A model generated the notes under the pieces. It was not told the origin of the DNA. It ran no database searches and worked only from the letters and a program-made list of their open reading frames with translations. A stretch of DNA of 21,936 bases from a virus. Position 1 is the first letter of the stretch; each line of letters opens with the position of its first letter. The translations under genes and the position numbers were made by a program. Location of the stretch: positions 1 to 21,936 of the IMG/VR virus record IMGVR_UViG_3300028557_000214; one strand, given 5' to 3'. Below are positions 12,638-18,380 of the stretch, in pieces.

Positions 12638-13864
12638 ATGTCATTTTTCGGATTTAAAGGTAATAAATTTTCATTTGGATTTCAAACGGGAACAGACCAT
12701 TTAACAAGAGGTTTGCCGATTTGGAGCAACCTAATAAATAAAATCTACGGGTTAAATACCCAAGAAGTCTGGGAGACGGTCAACAACAACGAATATAAAT
12801 TATTCTCAACTACTCCAGAAGTTTATATTCCTGTAATGCGAAAAGCTAATTTATTCTCAAACGGTCGTTTTGTCGTGAAAGATTGGAAAACAAACGAACC
12901 TATCGAAAATCACCCAATAATAAAATTACTTGAAAATCCAACGCCTTTAATGAATCGCAACGAATGGCTAATTGCTGTTTCAGTCTTGCATGACATTTAC
13001 GGCAACGTTTACATTTACAAGAATCAACCATCTCGACTTTCAGAAGCACCAAACACGCTTTCAATTTTACCTAATGACGATATTAAGTTGAAACTTTCGG
13101 GCGTAAAATACAAGCAATTGAACGAAGAAGAAATTATCAAAAAATACATTCTTTCGACAAATAACGAGGAATTTGAACCATCCGAAATTATCCACTTAAA
13201 GAACTTTTCAACAGACGGTATCAAAGGTCAATCAATACTCGAATCGTTGCAAATGCCTATAAGCAATGCAAGGGGTTCTTACGGATTTATCAATGTGAAT
13301 AACACAAAACGTGGAGCTCACGGTATAATTTCTCCAAAATCAGGTGCACAAGGAACGATTCCGCTTATTGAAAAAGACCGTCAAGACATTGAAAAACAAT
13401 ATCAACAAGATAACGGAATTTATGACCGTCAAACTCCAATAAAAATAGTTGATAAACCAATCGACTATACTCAGATTAGTTTAGCTTTAAAGGAACAAAT
13501 GCCTTTTGAAACTATAGGTCTAGCTATGTCAAAGGTTGTGGATGCAATTGGTTTAAATATGAATTTATTCTCAACTGATAAACAATCAACTTATGCAAAT
13601 CAAGAAAACGGAGAAAAACAAGCTTACAATAGTTGCATTATTCCATTTGCTGAAAAGTTTTGTTTTGCAATAAATAACAAACTAAACTTAGTTGAAAAAG
13701 GCATTTACATTGAACTTGACTACTCTCATTTACCACCTATGCAAGTAAACGAAACACAGGTAGCTACTGAAATGAAAATGAAAGCCGAAGCTATTGATAA
13801 ACTTGTTCAAGTTGGTTATTCACTTTCTGAAGCAGAGGCACTACTTGGAATTTCATCAAAATAA
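12638..13864 (+). CDS. Portal protein, HK97 type, on opposite strand
   Basis: 408 aa, the only convincing plus-strand gene here. It shows portal features in order: an N-terminal region with PEVYIPVMRKANLFSNG, then NEWLIAVSVLHDIYGNVYIY (residues ~108-127), SEIIHLKNFSTDGIKGQSIL (~188-207), the loop with KRGAHGIISPKSGAQG, KDRQDIEKQYQQ, and the C-terminal EAIDKLVQVGYSLSEAEALLGI typical of the portal C-terminus. It forms the twelve-subunit ring through which DNA enters the head. It occupies its normal slot between terminase and protease but is read in the opposite direction, has its own promoter, and overlaps the last 49 bases of the large terminase gene tail to tail. An A-rich stretch before the ATG serves as ribosome-binding context. 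Confidence 0.93.
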   Translation: MSFFGFKGNKFSFGFQTGTDHLTRGLPIWSNLINKIYGLNTQEVWETVNNNEYKLFSTTPEVYIPVMRKANLFSNGRFVVKDWKTNEPIENHPIIKLLENPTPLMNRNEWLIAVSVLHDIYGNVYIYKNQPSRLSEAPNTLSILPNDDIKLKLSGVKYKQLNEEEIIKKYILSTNNEEFEPSEIIHLKNFSTDGIKGQSILESLQMPISNARGSYGFINVNNTKRGAHGIISPKSGAQGTIPLIEKDRQDIEKQYQQDNGIYDRQTPIKIVDKPIDYTQISLALKEQMPFETIGLAMSKVVDAIGLNMNLFSTDKQSTYANQENGEKQAYNSCIIPFAEKFCFAINNKLNLVEKGIYIELDYSHLPPMQVNETQVATEMKMKAEAIDKLVQVGYSLSEAEALLGISSK

Positions 13865-15249
13865 CCTAAATGAAAATCTCGAGCCATTTTACAAAGTCCC
13901 TCTAAACAGTCGGGGGCATCATCATGTTTAACTGTTCCGTTTTTGTTGTATTCAGTTAAGTTTTTAATGAATTTATCATAATCGCTACCGTGTTCGTAAT
14001 TTGACCTAAATACGCAAGTCATTTTAATAAATCCAGCTAATTGTGTTATTCTTGCATGCTTGTTTGATTTTGCACGTACTGGAATTAAAGCAATAGAATC
14101 TTTTATTTTTGGTTGCAAAAGTTGAGAATACATATTACCTCCGAAATTAGATTCAACGTTGCAATATTCGGGTTGCCAAATATTCAATATATTAGCTGTT
14201 AAATCTACGTTGGTATCCGTTCCTAATTTGGTAAATAATACATCTTCAATGAATAGTTTTTTATTAAACAAAGTACCAATAATTACACAGTGATTATCTT
14301 CCCCTGTGTCTGCTATATCAATGTAAGAAAGCCTACCAATACGTTCTTTAAAGTCAATATTTGAAAAGTCTTGAAAATGTAAATCTGATTTTGGAAACAA
14401 TAATCCCTCTCTTGGGGTTGGGTTTTGCATGTACTGAGTTTGAAAAACCATTTCGTTGATTTTTTCTAAATGCCTCAATTCCTCAATTGTATGCTTTTCA
14501 CTCCATAAAGCCGTTCCATCTTCTTTAATTACTGGCATAGATATAACTCGCCATTCTCCTGGTTCTATTTCTTGCAAATAACCACAAAGGTCATTTTGAT
14601 GTAACCGCTGCATAATTATAATAATCGCTGTATCTCTTGAATTTACACGATTACGAATAGTTGAATCAAATTTATAATTAACTTTTTCTCTAATTGTTGG
14701 ACTTTCTGCATCGTCAGGCTTAATAGGGTCATCAATAATAATTGCTCCTCCAAACTCTACAATTTCATTATCAAAATCCGTTTGCCCTGCTCCAAATCCT
14801 GTTACTTGACCACTTGCGGAACGTGCCAAAACTCCCCCTCCTTCGGTTGTGTACCATTTATCTTTTGCTTTTGAATGTTTTTTAATTTGAACGTAAGGGA
14901 ATAACTCTAAGTATTTATCACTTTGGATAATATCTTTTATAGTTTCTGAATTATCTAATGCCAAAGTGTCTGAATAAGATAAATGAATGAAACGAGCCTT
15001 TGGATTATTAGCAAGTGACCACGAAATAAACATTTTAACTGCTATTTCAGTCTTTCCATAACGTGGAGCTATGTTAAATATTTCACGGTTGTATTTTCCT
15101 TGTGCAATCGCTTCTAACTCATCAAATAAAACTTGATGGTGTGTATTTACGCTAAACTTTTTCCCGTTCAATTCTTTGAAAAAATAACGAGTAAAAAAGC
15201 TAAATGATTTTAAACATTTCGAACGGATAACATCATTTTCAGTAATCAT
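13816..15249 (-). CDS. terL: Terminase large subunit
   Basis: 477 aa. ATPase motor: Walker A variant APRYGKT (residues 61-67) and Walker B IIIDDP (170-175), with QRLHQNDL (214-221) as coupling region. Nuclease domain: acidic candidates in SYIDIAD (D311, D314), CNVESNFGG (E366) and KHDDAPDCLEGL (D443, D444, D447). It pumps DNA through the portal and cuts it. The ATG at 15249 overlaps the small-subunit stop by 11 nt. The last ~16 residues (through SSASASESE) are encoded opposite the 3' end of the portal gene and are low-complexity Ser/Ala/Glu, suggesting that the C-terminus was extended into antisense DNA after the portal was inverted. Confidence 0.95.
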   Translation of the reverse strand: MITENDVIRSKCLKSFSFFTRYFFKELNGKKFSVNTHHQVLFDELEAIAQGKYNREIFNIAPRYGKTEIAVKMFISWSLANNPKARFIHLSYSDTLALDNSETIKDIIQSDKYLELFPYVQIKKHSKAKDKWYTTEGGGVLARSASGQVTGFGAGQTDFDNEIVEFGGAIIIDDPIKPDDAESPTIREKVNYKFDSTIRNRVNSRDTAIIIIMQRLHQNDLCGYLQEIEPGEWRVISMPVIKEDGTALWSEKHTIEELRHLEKINEMVFQTQYMQNPTPREGLLFPKSDLHFQDFSNIDFKERIGRLSYIDIADTGEDNHCVIIGTLFNKKLFIEDVLFTKLGTDTNVDLTANILNIWQPEYCNVESNFGGNMYSQLLQPKIKDSIALIPVRAKSNKHARITQLAGFIKMTCVFRSNYEHGSDYDKFIKNLTEYNKNGTVKHDDAPDCLEGLCKMARDFHLGYFDEIPSSASASESE

Positions 15250-15592
15250 TTTCTAATTCGTCAGCTTTTTTCTTAGCTTGTTCAACTGTTAATTGATTGA
15301 TTGATTGTCCGTTTGTGGTTAGGTCTTGTTGCGGAGCTCCATACCCTGAGTCCATTAATGCTTTATAAGCATTAACATCTCCCTCCCTTGCTTTCTTAAC
15401 TAGTGCTAAAGTCATTAAATCTTCTTGACTCATAACTTCATCTTTACCATTTAAGGGGTTTTTTAAAGACTGTTCAACATCAAGCCATTTTCTCGCTATA
15501 GTTGACCTGTTTTTACTCCCTTTTGGTCTACCGTTAGGGTTTCCGCTTTCTCCTTTTTTCCAATTTGGCTTTAAATTGTTTTCTTTATTCAT
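15239..15592 (-). CDS. terS: Terminase small subunit-like, DUF5681 type
   Basis: 117 aa from the ATG at 15592; the frame is open 11 codons further but that part overlaps the nuclease gene and lacks the family pattern. Residues 12-30 contain WKKGESGNPNGRPKGSKNRS, the Gly/Pro/Arg/Lys-rich motif of DUF5681 proteins found next to phage terminases, here probably a DNA-contacting arm. A helical segment with LALVKKAREGDVNAYKALMDSGYGAP follows, as in small terminase and DUF5681 proteins. Its stop overlaps the large-subunit start and its start overlaps the PLD gene by 8 nt. It probably recognises the packaging site. Assignment is by motif and position. Confidence 0.85.
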   Translation of the reverse strand: MNKENNLKPNWKKGESGNPNGRPKGSKNRSTIARKWLDVEQSLKNPLNGKDEVMSQEDLMTLALVKKAREGDVNAYKALMDSGYGAPQQDLTTNGQSINQLTVEQAKKKADELENDY

Positions 15593-16277
15593 TCGGTGTA
15601 ATTTCGGTGTTTTCGTCAAAACCAAAACAAACTAATTCTTTTTTTTCCTTTAAGTATATTCTAATTTTTTTAAACCATTCTTTTGTAAAGTTAAATAAAT
15701 TTTTGTCGTTATCTATTACATACTGCTCAACCCTTGAATTAAATGACAAATTCCCAGAACCTTCAATGTGATAATAGTTTCCTTTTTTTGTTTTAACGGA
15801 GATAATTTTAGCGTGTGATGAACAGAAAAATAATTTCACATTTTTGTTTTTAATAAAAATTTCTTTTGTTAACTCTTCTTTTTTTCTATAAGCTTGATTC
15901 CGCAAATTAGAAATAAGTATTTCTGTTTTACATTCATTTGCATTAATTATTGAATCAATTAATTTTACTGAATCGTAATTAATTGAATACGCTGCAATAA
16001 GTAATTCTTCTATTTTTTCTTGTTTTGCTATATGTTGTAATAGCAAAGAAGCATTCATTGATTTGAATGTTACAATTCTTAGTGATGTTTCTTTTTTTGG
16101 AAGTATAATATCTTTTTCAGAATTTATAATTTCAAAAGTTTTTTTAGAGTTTAATTGAAACTTTACGTGAGATAAATCCTCCAAAGAGCTATCATCTAAG
16201 TCTTTTTCTTTATTTATTAAATTAGTATTATCCCAATCAAAAGAATCTAAATTCCAATTTTCAATGTTATTTTTCAT
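15585..16277 (-). CDS. PLD-superfamily nuclease-like protein
   Basis: 230 aa from the ATG at 16277; another ATG at 16307 would add 10 residues but lies in the stem of a terminator hairpin. The C-terminal half carries one HKD-type motif: SSHAKIIS (His155, Lys157 in the short form) followed by EGSGNLSFNSRVEQY (Ser174, Asn176, Glu184). The aspartate of the classical HxKxxxxD motif is not evident. Before it, IEELLIAAYSINYDSVKLI and CKTEILISNL fit the strands of a PLD fold. Single-motif PLD enzymes act as dimers, and phage or restriction members are often metal-independent nucleases. It lies directly upstream of the terminase genes, where HNH nucleases sit in many HK97-like phages, so a role in packaging-linked DNA cutting or in defence is plausible but unproven. 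Confidence 0.75.
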   Translation of the reverse strand: MKNNIENWNLDSFDWDNTNLINKEKDLDDSSLEDLSHVKFQLNSKKTFEIINSEKDIILPKKETSLRIVTFKSMNASLLLQHIAKQEKIEELLIAAYSINYDSVKLIDSIINANECKTEILISNLRNQAYRKKEELTKEIFIKNKNVKLFFCSSHAKIISVKTKKGNYYHIEGSGNLSFNSRVEQYVIDNDKNLFNFTKEWFKKIRIYLKEKKELVCFGFDENTEITPNE

Positions 16278-16278
16278 A

Positions 16279-16308
16279 AAAAGAAATGGGTTTTTAAAGA
16301 GACCCATT
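16279..16308 (-). terminator. Possible intrinsic terminator after radical SAM gene
   Basis: Minus-strand AATGGGT (16308-16302), a 10-nt loop, ACCCATT (16291-16285), then TCTTTTT directly before the ATG at 16277. A seven-pair stem with a T tract on the minus strand only. It would reduce flow from the accessory genes into the PLD and terminase genes; no clear promoter follows it, so it is likely leaky. Confidence 0.55.
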
Positions 16309-16322
16309 AAACTCTGTCAGCG

Positions 16323-17144
16323 TTACAAAATTACATTTAATCTTTGATTTTTCAAAGCCATATAATCCATGTCCGTTTCATAATCATTTAAAAACAAACT
16401 TTCTTCTTTGTATTGCAAAAGATCCTTTTTAATGTAAAACAGTTTATTATGTTTTCTCATTATTTTAACTGAATCGGTTAAAAATTTTGTCCAGTCAAAT
16501 TTATCTTCGTGCTTTTTAAAATGATTTAATTTACCAATTTTATAAGAATCAACGTAACTAGAAGTTAACTCCATTATTTCAAGAGATTGGTCAGGATAAA
16601 TAACAGGTTCCATACTTGCCCAAGTTTTTATTCCGTTTTCGTGCATTATCTTTAAAGTTTCGAATCTATCTTTTGGTAACGCTCCGTTTTTTTCCCATTT
16701 TAAACTATCTTCATTGTTTGTAAAGGTTAAACTTCCTCCAATCTGAATATTATCGCCAAACATTTTAAAAACGTCTAAATCTTGAATTAAATTTTTTCCA
16801 CCTTTACTTAAAATAGAAACAGGGATATTATGTTCTAAAAGCATCAATAAAACCTTTCTTGTTAATTTTGTATCATTATTAAAATGACTGTAAGGGTCTG
16901 TTAAAAATGATAAGAAAACTTGTTTTTCTGAATTTTGAAATTTCTTACAACTTCTTTTTAACTCTTTCATTAAAGTTTCTTCTTCTTTGATGTAAACGTC
17001 TGAATGGACGTAATTAGAATTAAATCTTTTCATCATTTTTGGAACGTAACAATATACGCATCCGTGGTCACATCCTTTGATGTAATTTAAAGCTAGAGGG
17101 CTGTATTCACGCGCTGCTCCGCTTGGTTCATAAATAGCTGACAT
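16323..17144 (-). CDS. Radical SAM protein of SPL (COG1533) type
   Basis: 273 aa. The iron-sulfur motif is near the N-terminus: GCDHGCVYCYVP with Cys25, Cys29 and Cys32 (CxxxCxxC), preceded by SPLALNYIKG as in spore-photoproduct-lyase-like proteins. The FLSFLTDPYS segment after ~residue 77 and ILSKGG (~111-116) fit the family's barrel strands, and WASMEPVIYP (~171-180) matches the SPL 'SiEP.i.p' strand. Such enzymes use S-adenosylmethionine to start radical chemistry; the founding member repairs a thymine photoproduct, while many relatives have no known substrate. It follows the methyltransferase-like gene by about 37 nt and precedes the PLD gene. Repair of phage DNA or modification of a nucleic acid is possible. 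Fold and cluster are secure; substrate is not. Confidence 0.88.
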   Translation of the reverse strand: MSAIYEPSGAAREYSPLALNYIKGCDHGCVYCYVPKMMKRFNSNYVHSDVYIKEEETLMKELKRSCKKFQNSEKQVFLSFLTDPYSHFNNDTKLTRKVLLMLLEHNIPVSILSKGGKNLIQDLDVFKMFGDNIQIGGSLTFTNNEDSLKWEKNGALPKDRFETLKIMHENGIKTWASMEPVIYPDQSLEIMELTSSYVDSYKIGKLNHFKKHEDKFDWTKFLTDSVKIMRKHNKLFYIKKDLLQYKEESLFLNDYETDMDYMALKNQRLNVIL

Positions 17145-17181
17145 ATTTACTTATTTTTAAAAGTTACTTAATCAAATATAT

Positions 17182-17724
17182 TCATTTTAACTCAAAATGA
17201 ATATAATACTTTCTACCATCACCATAATAATTAATTTCATTAATTCCAATATTAGCTAGGTATTTTTTAATTTTATCAAACATATTTTTCGAGAACAATG
17301 TTCTGCTTTTTTTTGTCATTGCTTTTGTATATCCTAATTTTTCAAGTATTAAATCGGGTAAATTGCCCATTCCTGAAGATATACAAGTTAAAAAAATATG
17401 TCCTTTATAATTTTTAGACATTAAATAATCTAATTGTTTAGCTGCAAAACCATAACTATCCAAATCAATAGTTGAATATTTATGAATGTTGATAGAAAAT
17501 AACCATTTCAAATTATCTCCTTTTAAATTTATTCTTTCGTAATTTTCAACATCTATCGAATGAATTATAAGGTTTTTAATTTTTGAAATATCACGATATA
17601 AAACACCATTACCTCCGTAACATTCTAAAACATTACTATTATTAGGTATGTATTTTGAACGCAAATCTATTTTTTTTTTTGTCCAAAAATGATCATTATT
17701 TGTTTTAATTACTTGTGCTTTCAT
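17182..17724 (-). CDS. Small class I methyltransferase-like protein
   Basis: 180 aa from the ATG at 17724 (a TTG two codons upstream is the alternative). Residues 32-42 (VLECYGGNGVL) match the glycine-rich SAM-binding motif I; HSIDVE (55-60) fits the acidic end of strand 2, and TIDLDSYGFA (85-94) fits motif IV, where 'DLDxYG' is reminiscent of the DxDPxG catalytic strand of Trm1-type guanosine N2-methyltransferases. No target-recognition domain is present, so a small RNA, nucleobase or protein substrate is as likely as DNA. It overlaps the ParB-like gene by 20 nt and is followed by the radical SAM gene, suggesting joint action. Fold confidence is moderate; the reaction is unknown. Confidence 0.68.
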   Translation of the reverse strand: MKAQVIKTNNDHFWTKKKIDLRSKYIPNNSNVLECYGGNGVLYRDISKIKNLIIHSIDVENYERINLKGDNLKWLFSINIHKYSTIDLDSYGFAAKQLDYLMSKNYKGHIFLTCISSGMGNLPDLILEKLGYTKAMTKKSRTLFSKNMFDKIKKYLANIGINEINYYGDGRKYYIHFELK

Positions 17725-18232
17725 ACTCAATTCCTTGAATGTTTTTTATTTCTTGCAATAAGTCTTTTATTTCAAAAAAAACATCTGCGCTACATGAAAT
17801 TAACACATGAGTTTTTTTATATGGCACTAATTTTTCTGTTTGTTCTTTTTGTTGTGATTCTTTTTCAATTTCTGGAACATCCAACCCCCAATCCTCCAAC
17901 TGTTCAACGTCCCATTCATTAGCCAACATTTCAAAATCCCACTCGCCACCCGAAACGTTATCTTTAATCAAAAACTCACGTTGTTGTTCTTCCGTAAGGT
18001 TATCAGCAATAATAATTGGTATTTCTATCATTCCTACTTCTTTACACGCTTTCAATCGCATATTACCACCGAGAACAACCATATCAGCGTTAACAACAAT
18101 CGGTCTAATCTCAAGCATTTCAGGAAGTTCTTGAATTGATTTAACCAACTTCTTAAACTTGTCGTCTTTGATTAAACGTGGGTTGTTGGGGTTGAGTTTA
18201 ATCTCGCTTATTTTAACTTTTTGAATTTTCAT
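17705..18232 (-). CDS. ParB/Srx-fold protein
   Basis: 175 aa. The N-terminal ~90 residues form a ParB-like domain: KISEIKLNPNNPR (7-19), ELPEMLEIRPIVVN (35-48) and the nucleotide-binding segment VVLGGNMRLKACKEVG (52-67). DNVSGGEWDFEMLANEWDVEQLEDWGL (91-117) is the helical extension usual in phage versions. The C-terminal part (THVLISCSADVFFEIKDLLQEI) is a separate small alpha/beta piece also found in Bacteroidota phage ParB-like proteins. In phages such proteins lie near terminases or methyltransferases and may bind or nick DNA; there is no ParA partner here, so plasmid-type partition is unlikely. It starts 10 nt after the small RHH-like gene. Confidence 0.85.
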   Translation of the reverse strand: MKIQKVKISEIKLNPNNPRLIKDDKFKKLVKSIQELPEMLEIRPIVVNADMVVLGGNMRLKACKEVGMIEIPIIIADNLTEEQQREFLIKDNVSGGEWDFEMLANEWDVEQLEDWGLDVPEIEKESQQKEQTEKLVPYKKTHVLISCSADVFFEIKDLLQEIKNIQGIEYESTSN

Positions 18233-18242
18233 AAGTTTAATA

Positions 18243-18380
18243 TTAGTCTTTTTTATTAAGTGATTTAGCGAATTTTCTAATTTCTTCTATTTGGCTAGGG
18301 TAACAAGTAACAGAGAATGTTTTGATTTTCTCTGTTACTGATGGTCGTCCTGCTCCTAATCTTTTTCCTCCTCTTTGCAT
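18243..18380 (-). CDS. Ribbon-helix-helix-like small DNA-binding protein
   Basis: 45 aa, beginning MQRGGKRLGAGRPSVTEK. The N-terminal GGKRLGAGRP resembles the AT-hook-like arm that precedes RHH domains in many phage proteins ('RGGxRxGAGRPK'). It is followed by a strand IKTFSVTCYP and helix SQIEEIRKFAKSL; the protein ends within or just after the first helix, so it is shorter than a full RHH domain. Its ATG shares one base with the preceding TAA (TAATG). The gene contains a perfect 12-bp inverted repeat (18306-18317 and 18328-18339). It is probably a small regulator, perhaps acting on its own operon; truncation leaves this uncertain. Confidence 0.7.
   Translation of the reverse strand: MQRGGKRLGAGRPSVTEKIKTFSVTCYPSQIEEIRKFAKSLNKKD
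18306..18339. repeat. Perfect 12-bp inverted repeat within RHH-like gene
   Basis: Arms AGTAACAGAGAA (18306-18317) and TTCTCTGTTACT (18328-18339) are exact complements around a 10-nt centre. Arm centres are 22 bp apart, about two helical turns. No T tract follows on either strand, so it is not a typical terminator. It could be a protein-binding site or an RNA hairpin in the mRNA. Confidence 0.8.

Follow-up and report, generated by a model that had tools for sequence, protein, structure and literature searches.

A three-gene viral cassette of ParB-domain, methyltransferase and radical SAM proteins ahead of the terminase genes

Gene arrangement at the locus

The IMG/VR viral record IMGVR_UViG_3300028557_000214, a sequence of 21,936 bases that we analysed at full length and refer to as the window, carries a series of minus-strand genes encoding a ParB-domain protein, a small methyltransferase (MT), a radical S-adenosylmethionine (SAM) protein (rSAM) and a PLD-like protein. 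The original prediction, made from the sequence alone, placed these four open reading frames (ORFs) here in this order, and our scan of 20 window ORFs bears out their positions and strand, with the terminase genes terS and terL coming next. The first three genes constitute a conserved viral cassette that lies ahead of the terminase. The features of the locus are as follows.

17705-18232, minus strand: ParB_N-domain protein, 175 amino acids (aa) (PF02195, E 1.7e-7, above the Pfam cut-off; phrog_498, E 1.6e-31 over the ParB part)
17182-17724, minus strand: MT, small class I SAM-dependent methyltransferase (relatives, alignment, AlphaFold2, Foldseek and hhalign)
16323-17144, minus strand: radical SAM protein, 273 aa (PF04055, E 1e-12; NCBIfam; AlphaFold2 model, pLDDT 95)
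15585-16307, minus strand: PLD-like protein, 240 aa, with HAKx4KT...EGSGN...EQ (phrog_20533, E 4.9e-18; family alignment)
15239-15589, minus strand: probable terS, small terminase subunit, DUF5681 (PF18932, E 6.8e-16), directly 5′ of terL
13816-15249, minus strand: terL, large terminase subunit (phrog_38, E 1.2e-100; PF22530)

As read from the sequence, the ParB and MT genes share 20 nt (17705-17724), and the stop codon of the PLD gene overlaps the start of terS at ATGAATAA (15585-15589). Between MT and rSAM, a near-perfect AT-rich inverted repeat, TATATTCATTTT-GAGTT-AAAATGAATATA, spans the MT stop codon (17177-17205) and may be a terminator or a regulatory hairpin. A small unlisted ORF located 5′ of the ParB gene (18246-18380, minus strand; translation MQRGGKRLGAGRPSVTEKIKTFSVTCYPSQIEEIRKFAKSLNKKD) resembles a small regulator of the ribbon-helix-helix type.

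Conservation of the ParB, MT and radical SAM genes

A first scan with the window rSAM returned eight viral loci (loci are given here by L numbers), four of which carry ParB, MT and rSAM in this order. Locus L007 has MT and rSAM in the same order on a contig that begins just 5′ of MT, and the three genes are all present in Dulem virus 36 (PP511521, reportedly from lemur faeces). Among these loci MT is far more diverged than its neighbour, with identities of 27-40% for MT versus 45-92% for rSAM. Neither MT nor PLD, used as a single-protein query against viral contigs, gave a match, and alignments were needed. With an MT alignment we recovered 117 relatives in IMG/VR, and with an rSAM alignment 99. 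We kept 80 loci from each search, and each set was selected by the one protein only, with neighbouring genes ignored. Because the contigs are interrelated and the sets share some members, the counts that follow are not independent; the triples reduce to 65 non-redundant ones at less than 85% rSAM identity.

In the MT set, a ParB gene lies at most 150 nt upstream of MT, overlapping or abutting it, in 74 of the 80 contigs. Two of the remainder lie at contig edges, where the upstream gene cannot be tested, and the other four (L033, L053, L060 and L090) have directly upstream an ORF that bears the ParB tail described below but had escaped the ParB model. A radical SAM protein of the type related to the PA0069 family is found within 1.5 kb of MT in 68 contigs: downstream on the same strand in 50, convergent in 17 and upstream in one. 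A different radical SAM-like family, DUF5131, is the partner in five contigs, so that one type or the other accompanies MT in 73 of 80, and seven have neither. In 58 contigs, TerL is encoded no more than 3 kb downstream of MT.

The reciprocal rSAM set gives a similar picture, with MT nearby in 53 loci, a beta-class DNA methyltransferase in eight, ParB alone in four, no recognised neighbour in ten and a contig edge in five. Altogether, about 100 viral contigs combine ParB, MT and rSAM, with rSAM in either relative orientation. The 17 convergent cases indicate that the adjacency survives gene inversion and is not a matter of a shared operon only. BLAST clustering divides the TerL proteins encoded on cassette contigs into three groups of 69, 16 and two members.

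A partner-specific ParB tail and fused DNA methyltransferases

The predicted ParB fold is upheld by the Pfam match, which covers ParB_N only (residues 2-92 of 175). ParB domains act with DNA. The window protein is not a complete ParB of the ParABS kind: it has no central helix-turn-helix, and no ParA was present among the 20 ORFs scanned. Its match to phrog_498, a ParB-DNA methyltransferase family, is confined to positions 33-171 of 633.

The C-terminal tail of the window ParB, approximately residues 130-175 ('THVLISCSADVFFEIKDLLQEIKNIQGIEYESTSN'), is typical of ParB proteins that precede MT, with a consensus like THILLSFPPEKxxxIxxxIxxIxxIEYEQSSN. A model of this tail matches 96 of 96 MT-adjacent ParB proteins, a count that is partly by construction because the model was built from the proteins it scored. 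Construction does not explain that the model also matches four upstream ORFs overlooked by the ParB model, or that the tail is found on no fusion of ParB to a beta-class methyltransferase and on no ParB elsewhere in the fetched loci.

In some loci MT is replaced. L005 and L008 lack MT and encode a fusion of ParB with a beta-class DNA methyltransferase (motifs FTDPPYDL and FTDPDFSM, respectively), with the same rSAM next. Further fusions of this kind lie upstream of rSAM in L130 and L167 and convergent with it in L132 and L141, and in L103 a ParB-like/beta-class methyltransferase protein comes after rSAM. The fused DPPY-type DNA methyltransferase scores as PADLOC MTase_II. Two other loci differ. 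In L129 (1217-2251), ParB is fused to an MT-like domain with DFDDEG replacing IDLDxYG, again with rSAM next, and this domain may represent a third methyltransferase type in the MT slot. In L112 (2-1034), a DNA methyltransferase with an SCPPYYN motif precedes rSAM, and so does a short ORF whose product resembles a protein of the S-adenosylmethionine decarboxylase type.

We prefer DNA as the substrate of the cassette mainly because a DNA methyltransferase domain can occupy the place of MT. Our preferred reading, for which we judge the case about evenly balanced, is that ParB, MT and rSAM are a single functional unit: a viral module for nucleic-acid modification, most likely with phage DNA as its target late in infection and ahead of packaging.

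MT as a viral class I methyltransferase family

The original prediction had described MT as class I methyltransferase-like with a motif reminiscent of Trm1, and both parts hold. An AlphaFold2 model of the window protein based on a 67-sequence alignment (A5) has the class I methyltransferase fold with a pLDDT of 93, and Foldseek with this model returns generic class I methyltransferases only. Motif I of the window protein is LECYGGNG and motif IV is IDLDSYG. Across the family motif IV reads [FY][DN][IV]IDLD[AS][YWF]G, resembling the Trm1 sequence FDYIDIDPFGSP. Above cut-off, MT has no match to a curated family of Pfam, NCBIfam or PHROGs. No member among the 67 matches a PHROG at E 0.001, and 15 of 67 match Pfam TRM at E<0.01. 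The sequence and the model together indicate that MT is an undescribed viral family of putative class I methyltransferases.

Profile comparison by hhalign relates MT to Trm1, the tRNA guanine-26 N2-dimethyltransferase, at 94.5% over 108 columns. Part of this score must be generic because the RsmD control also reaches 91%, but over 36 columns that cover motif I only. MT is not a full-length Trm1: the window protein scores 14.8 bits against a cut-off of 27, and it has 180 aa where the model has 376 positions. MT thus appears to share its core with Trm1-like base N-methyltransferases and, by length and cut-off, is not Trm1. Two other assignments were tried and rejected. A relationship to TcmP, an idea that came from a shared motif and the DUF5131 partner, gave only 10% over 40 columns; MT has no NCBIfam match (TcmP is TIGR04474), and PADLOC does not recognise it as TcmP. 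Comparison with beta-class DNA methyltransferases gave 9.6%.

These relationships bear on an RNA substrate. MT might methylate bases of tRNA or rRNA as a Trm1-like enzyme and rSAM might catalyse a second modification, which would guard tRNAs from host anticodon nucleases or tune translation. Among the families compared, Trm1 is the closest to MT in its core and motif IV, and the matches to Pfam TRM point the same way. MT nevertheless lacks the C-terminal half of Trm1 (180 versus about 375 residues), the RsmD control makes the Trm1 score partly generic, ParB domains are linked to DNA, the domains that replace MT are ParB-fused DNA methyltransferases, and the cassette sits ahead of the terminase. 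We therefore regard modification of RNA as unlikely and retain phage DNA as the preferred substrate.

Outside viral contigs MT is rare. A genome collection of 84,980 species yielded four matches (L168, L169, L170 and L171): two contigs of Bacteroidota metagenome-assembled genomes, a contig assigned by binning to Thermoplasmatota and a locus in Bradyrhizobium. The Bacteroidota and Thermoplasmatota-binned contigs carry ParB-MT-rSAM or ParB-MT-DUF5131 in phage-like surroundings; the surroundings of the fourth, the Bradyrhizobium locus (L171), are looser. We consider the family viral because matches are this few and lie in phage-like surroundings. Plasmids gave no MT match. Among 50,697 sequenced phage records, a pattern search that was not exhaustive found MT in one, Dulem virus 36, and for this reason culture-based work would rarely meet this family.

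The radical SAM protein

The rSAM protein has the hallmarks of the radical SAM superfamily, namely a CxxxCxxC motif (residues 25-32), a PF04055 match above cut-off and a partial TIM barrel fold; Cys25, Cys29 and Cys32 are invariant in 38 relatives. Its nearest curated families are PA0069 (7e-20), Rv2578c and rSAM_mob_pairB, each scoring below its own cut-off (71 bits versus 360 for PA0069). The DUF5131 score is likewise below threshold (21.4 versus 28.9 bits). Matches of the rSAM profile to a bile acid receptor were discarded as spurious.

The protein had been proposed to be of the spore photoproduct lyase (SPL) type, a claim that survives for the fold and fails for the catalytic residue. The closest folds to the rSAM model are SPL (4k9r, TMq 0.65) and SuiB. 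Across the 38 relatives there is no conserved cysteine column beyond the three cluster cysteines, and hence no counterpart of the SPL catalytic cysteine, so that we rejected SPL as an identity for rSAM. It is very improbable, then, that rSAM mends damaged phage DNA in the manner of SPL, with ParB and MT helping to load it. The fold similarity would fit such a repair function, but besides the absent cysteine the SPL-family model matches the window protein at only E 0.06, and a methyltransferase partner is hard to square with repair.

The PLD-like gene and the terminase region

The PLD-like protein had been called a single-HKD nuclease. The family alignment (A8) has invariant H165, K167, G183, S184 and N186, so that HxK and GSxN are both preserved, but Lys takes the place of the HxKx4D Asp in six of six aligned members. 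No curated family matches the protein above cut-off; a phage relative matches PLDc_2, below cut-off.

The prediction that all four genes form a set stands for ParB, MT and rSAM and falls largely for PLD. When 80 PLD loci in viral contigs were collected with neighbours ignored, only three had cassette genes, and at least 36 had a detected TerL. Among cassette contigs, PLD is found in the window, L017, L054/L055, L073, L127, L135 and L167. This independent distribution rules out PLD as a fourth core member, with one exception: in L167 (4235-6004) a single ORF combines ParB, a beta-class methyltransferase (DPEW; N6_N4_Mtase, 7e-12) and PLD, followed by rSAM and, further on, TerL. PLD can thus join the module, though most PLD loci lack the cassette. 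It is more likely a terminase-linked gene and occasional cassette partner that encodes a packaging-linked, nuclease-like protein.

Several other features of these regions were observed. A second PLD-like subfamily, with the motif NHAK/NHSK...ESSANINTNPRxEN, lies near the cassette and terminase in L073 (6564-7250), L127 (1258-1920) and L135 (3401-4078). In Flavobacterium phage 6H (L012, 2631-4320), a ParB-like gene stands ahead of two annotated PAPS reductase genes, and this pairing lies a few genes upstream of PLD and TerL. In the window, the portal gene (12638-13864; PF04860, E 1.6e-28) is on the plus strand, convergent with terL and overlapping its end by 49 nt. The other large window genes are on the minus strand, which makes this an unusual inversion within a packaging module.

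A candidate module for DNA modification before packaging

A role for the cassette in DNA modification before packaging is plausible; the gene association is observed directly, and the chemistry is a proposal. The ParB domain would bind or select DNA, and its tail would dock MT as a non-covalent counterpart of the covalent ParB-methyltransferase fusion. MT would then methylate the exocyclic amino group of a base, and rSAM would change that base or its methyl group. The resulting modified base could shield the viral genome from nucleases of the host. Other pathways of DNA hypermodification in phages employ radical SAM enzymes (background for which we found no paper). The original prediction was aware of no described system of this composition, and our literature searches agree: in the open literature, with subscription papers outside the scope, we found no description of a phage combination of ParB and radical SAM with a methyltransferase, base modification or SPL.

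Several points weigh against the proposal of a DNA modification module. Along with the relatedness of the contigs and the construction of the tail model, the trees of MT and rSAM are not significantly congruent (Mantel rho 0.08, with 141 of 999 permutations at or above the observed value). Two of the fusions have altered catalytic motifs, DPDF instead of DPPY in L008 (6864-7988) and DPEW in L167, and given DPDF the rSAM-linked DNA methyltransferase of L008 may be catalytically altered. The activity of MT itself is uncertain because Ala or Ser replaces the Pro of the Trm1 motif ([FY]-D-x-[IV]-D-[LI]-D-P-[FY]-G), though the Asp residues of motif IV are kept. Finally, Trm1 acts on tRNA, and MT taken alone could therefore argue for RNA.

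The poor correlation of MT and rSAM distances would also fit independent cargo genes that gather at a pre-terminase site with no joint function, a description that does hold for PLD in most genomes. For the cassette it is improbable, since the ParB and MT genes overlap, ParB has a tail peculiar to MT partners, the adjacency persists in both rSAM orientations and a fused methyltransferase can replace MT. A joint role in DNA modification remains our preferred reading.

If correct, this reading adds a widespread virus-encoded methyltransferase family that has no curated model and is coupled to a radical SAM enzyme, and it points to a base modification so far undescribed. It would also provide a testable handle on DUF5131/TcmP and PA0069 radical SAM, two very common families without an assigned function, in a setting beside DNA methyltransferases and ParB.

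Comparison with known systems

The bacterial three-Cys-motif pair TcmP-DUF5131 offers a parallel in gene design. DUF5131 partners MT in L023, L039, L044, L063 and L078 of the MT set and also in L169, and TcmP adjoins DUF5131 in 21 of 21 bacterial loci fetched, where the two score as components A and B of the PADLOC candidate defence pairs PDC-M30/M41. TcmP carries a D-P-[YF]-G motif at the position corresponding to MT motif IV. Because DUF5131 accompanies both viral MT and bacterial TcmP, a methyltransferase-like protein beside a radical SAM-like protein is a design common to both. We found no paper on DUF5131 in the literature.

This parallel raises the alternative that the viral genes are a defence or counter-defence pair, a viral version of PDC-M30/M41 directed against competing phages or serving to blunt such systems, and not a means of modifying the virus's own genome. 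The pairing of TcmP with DUF5131 in all bacterial loci fetched, the five viral MT genes with a DUF5131 partner and the comparable motif speak for it. Against it, MT is not recognisable as TcmP by profile comparison or by PADLOC, PDC-M30/M41 are PADLOC candidates for which we found no functional test, and the location ahead of the terminase points to a function in the viral cycle itself. We consider a defence role quite unlikely, somewhat more so than RNA modification. The rivals rank, in order, as RNA modification, a defence role, repair and a chance collection.

Set within the preferred reading of DNA modification, a more specific scheme can be offered only tentatively. The cassette would be a new type of two-SAM-enzyme DNA hypermodification, in which a ParB-docked, Trm1-like MT marks an exocyclic amine and a PA0069/DUF5131-type radical SAM protein converts it further, while bacteria would use the related TcmP-DUF5131 in phage defence.

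The cassette can be compared with several known systems. With Trm1, MT appears to share the SAM-binding core and motif IV (IDLDAYGSP versus IDIDPFGSP, within the 108 aligned columns), but it lacks the C-terminal domain, has Ala or Ser for the motif IV Pro, is virus-borne and is linked to ParB and rSAM. The ParB part is close to phrog_498 ParB-DNA methyltransferases and MTase_II, and such fusions precede the same rSAM elsewhere, whereas the window ParB has no methyltransferase domain and is accompanied by a class I enzyme that is encoded separately and belongs to a different family. The rSAM core belongs in sequence with PA0069 and rSAM_mob_pairB, yet scores below the curated cut-offs and is not paired with rSAM_mob_pairA. 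SPL, together with SuiB, is its closest solved fold, but rSAM has neither the conserved fourth cysteine nor a spore context. Like TcmP-DUF5131, the viral cassette sets a methyltransferase-like protein beside a radical SAM-like one, collinear or convergent, and five viral MT loci use DUF5131 itself; MT is much smaller than TcmP, however, with no demonstrable homology to it beyond the methyltransferase fold, and the bacterial loci fetched were not found with ParB.

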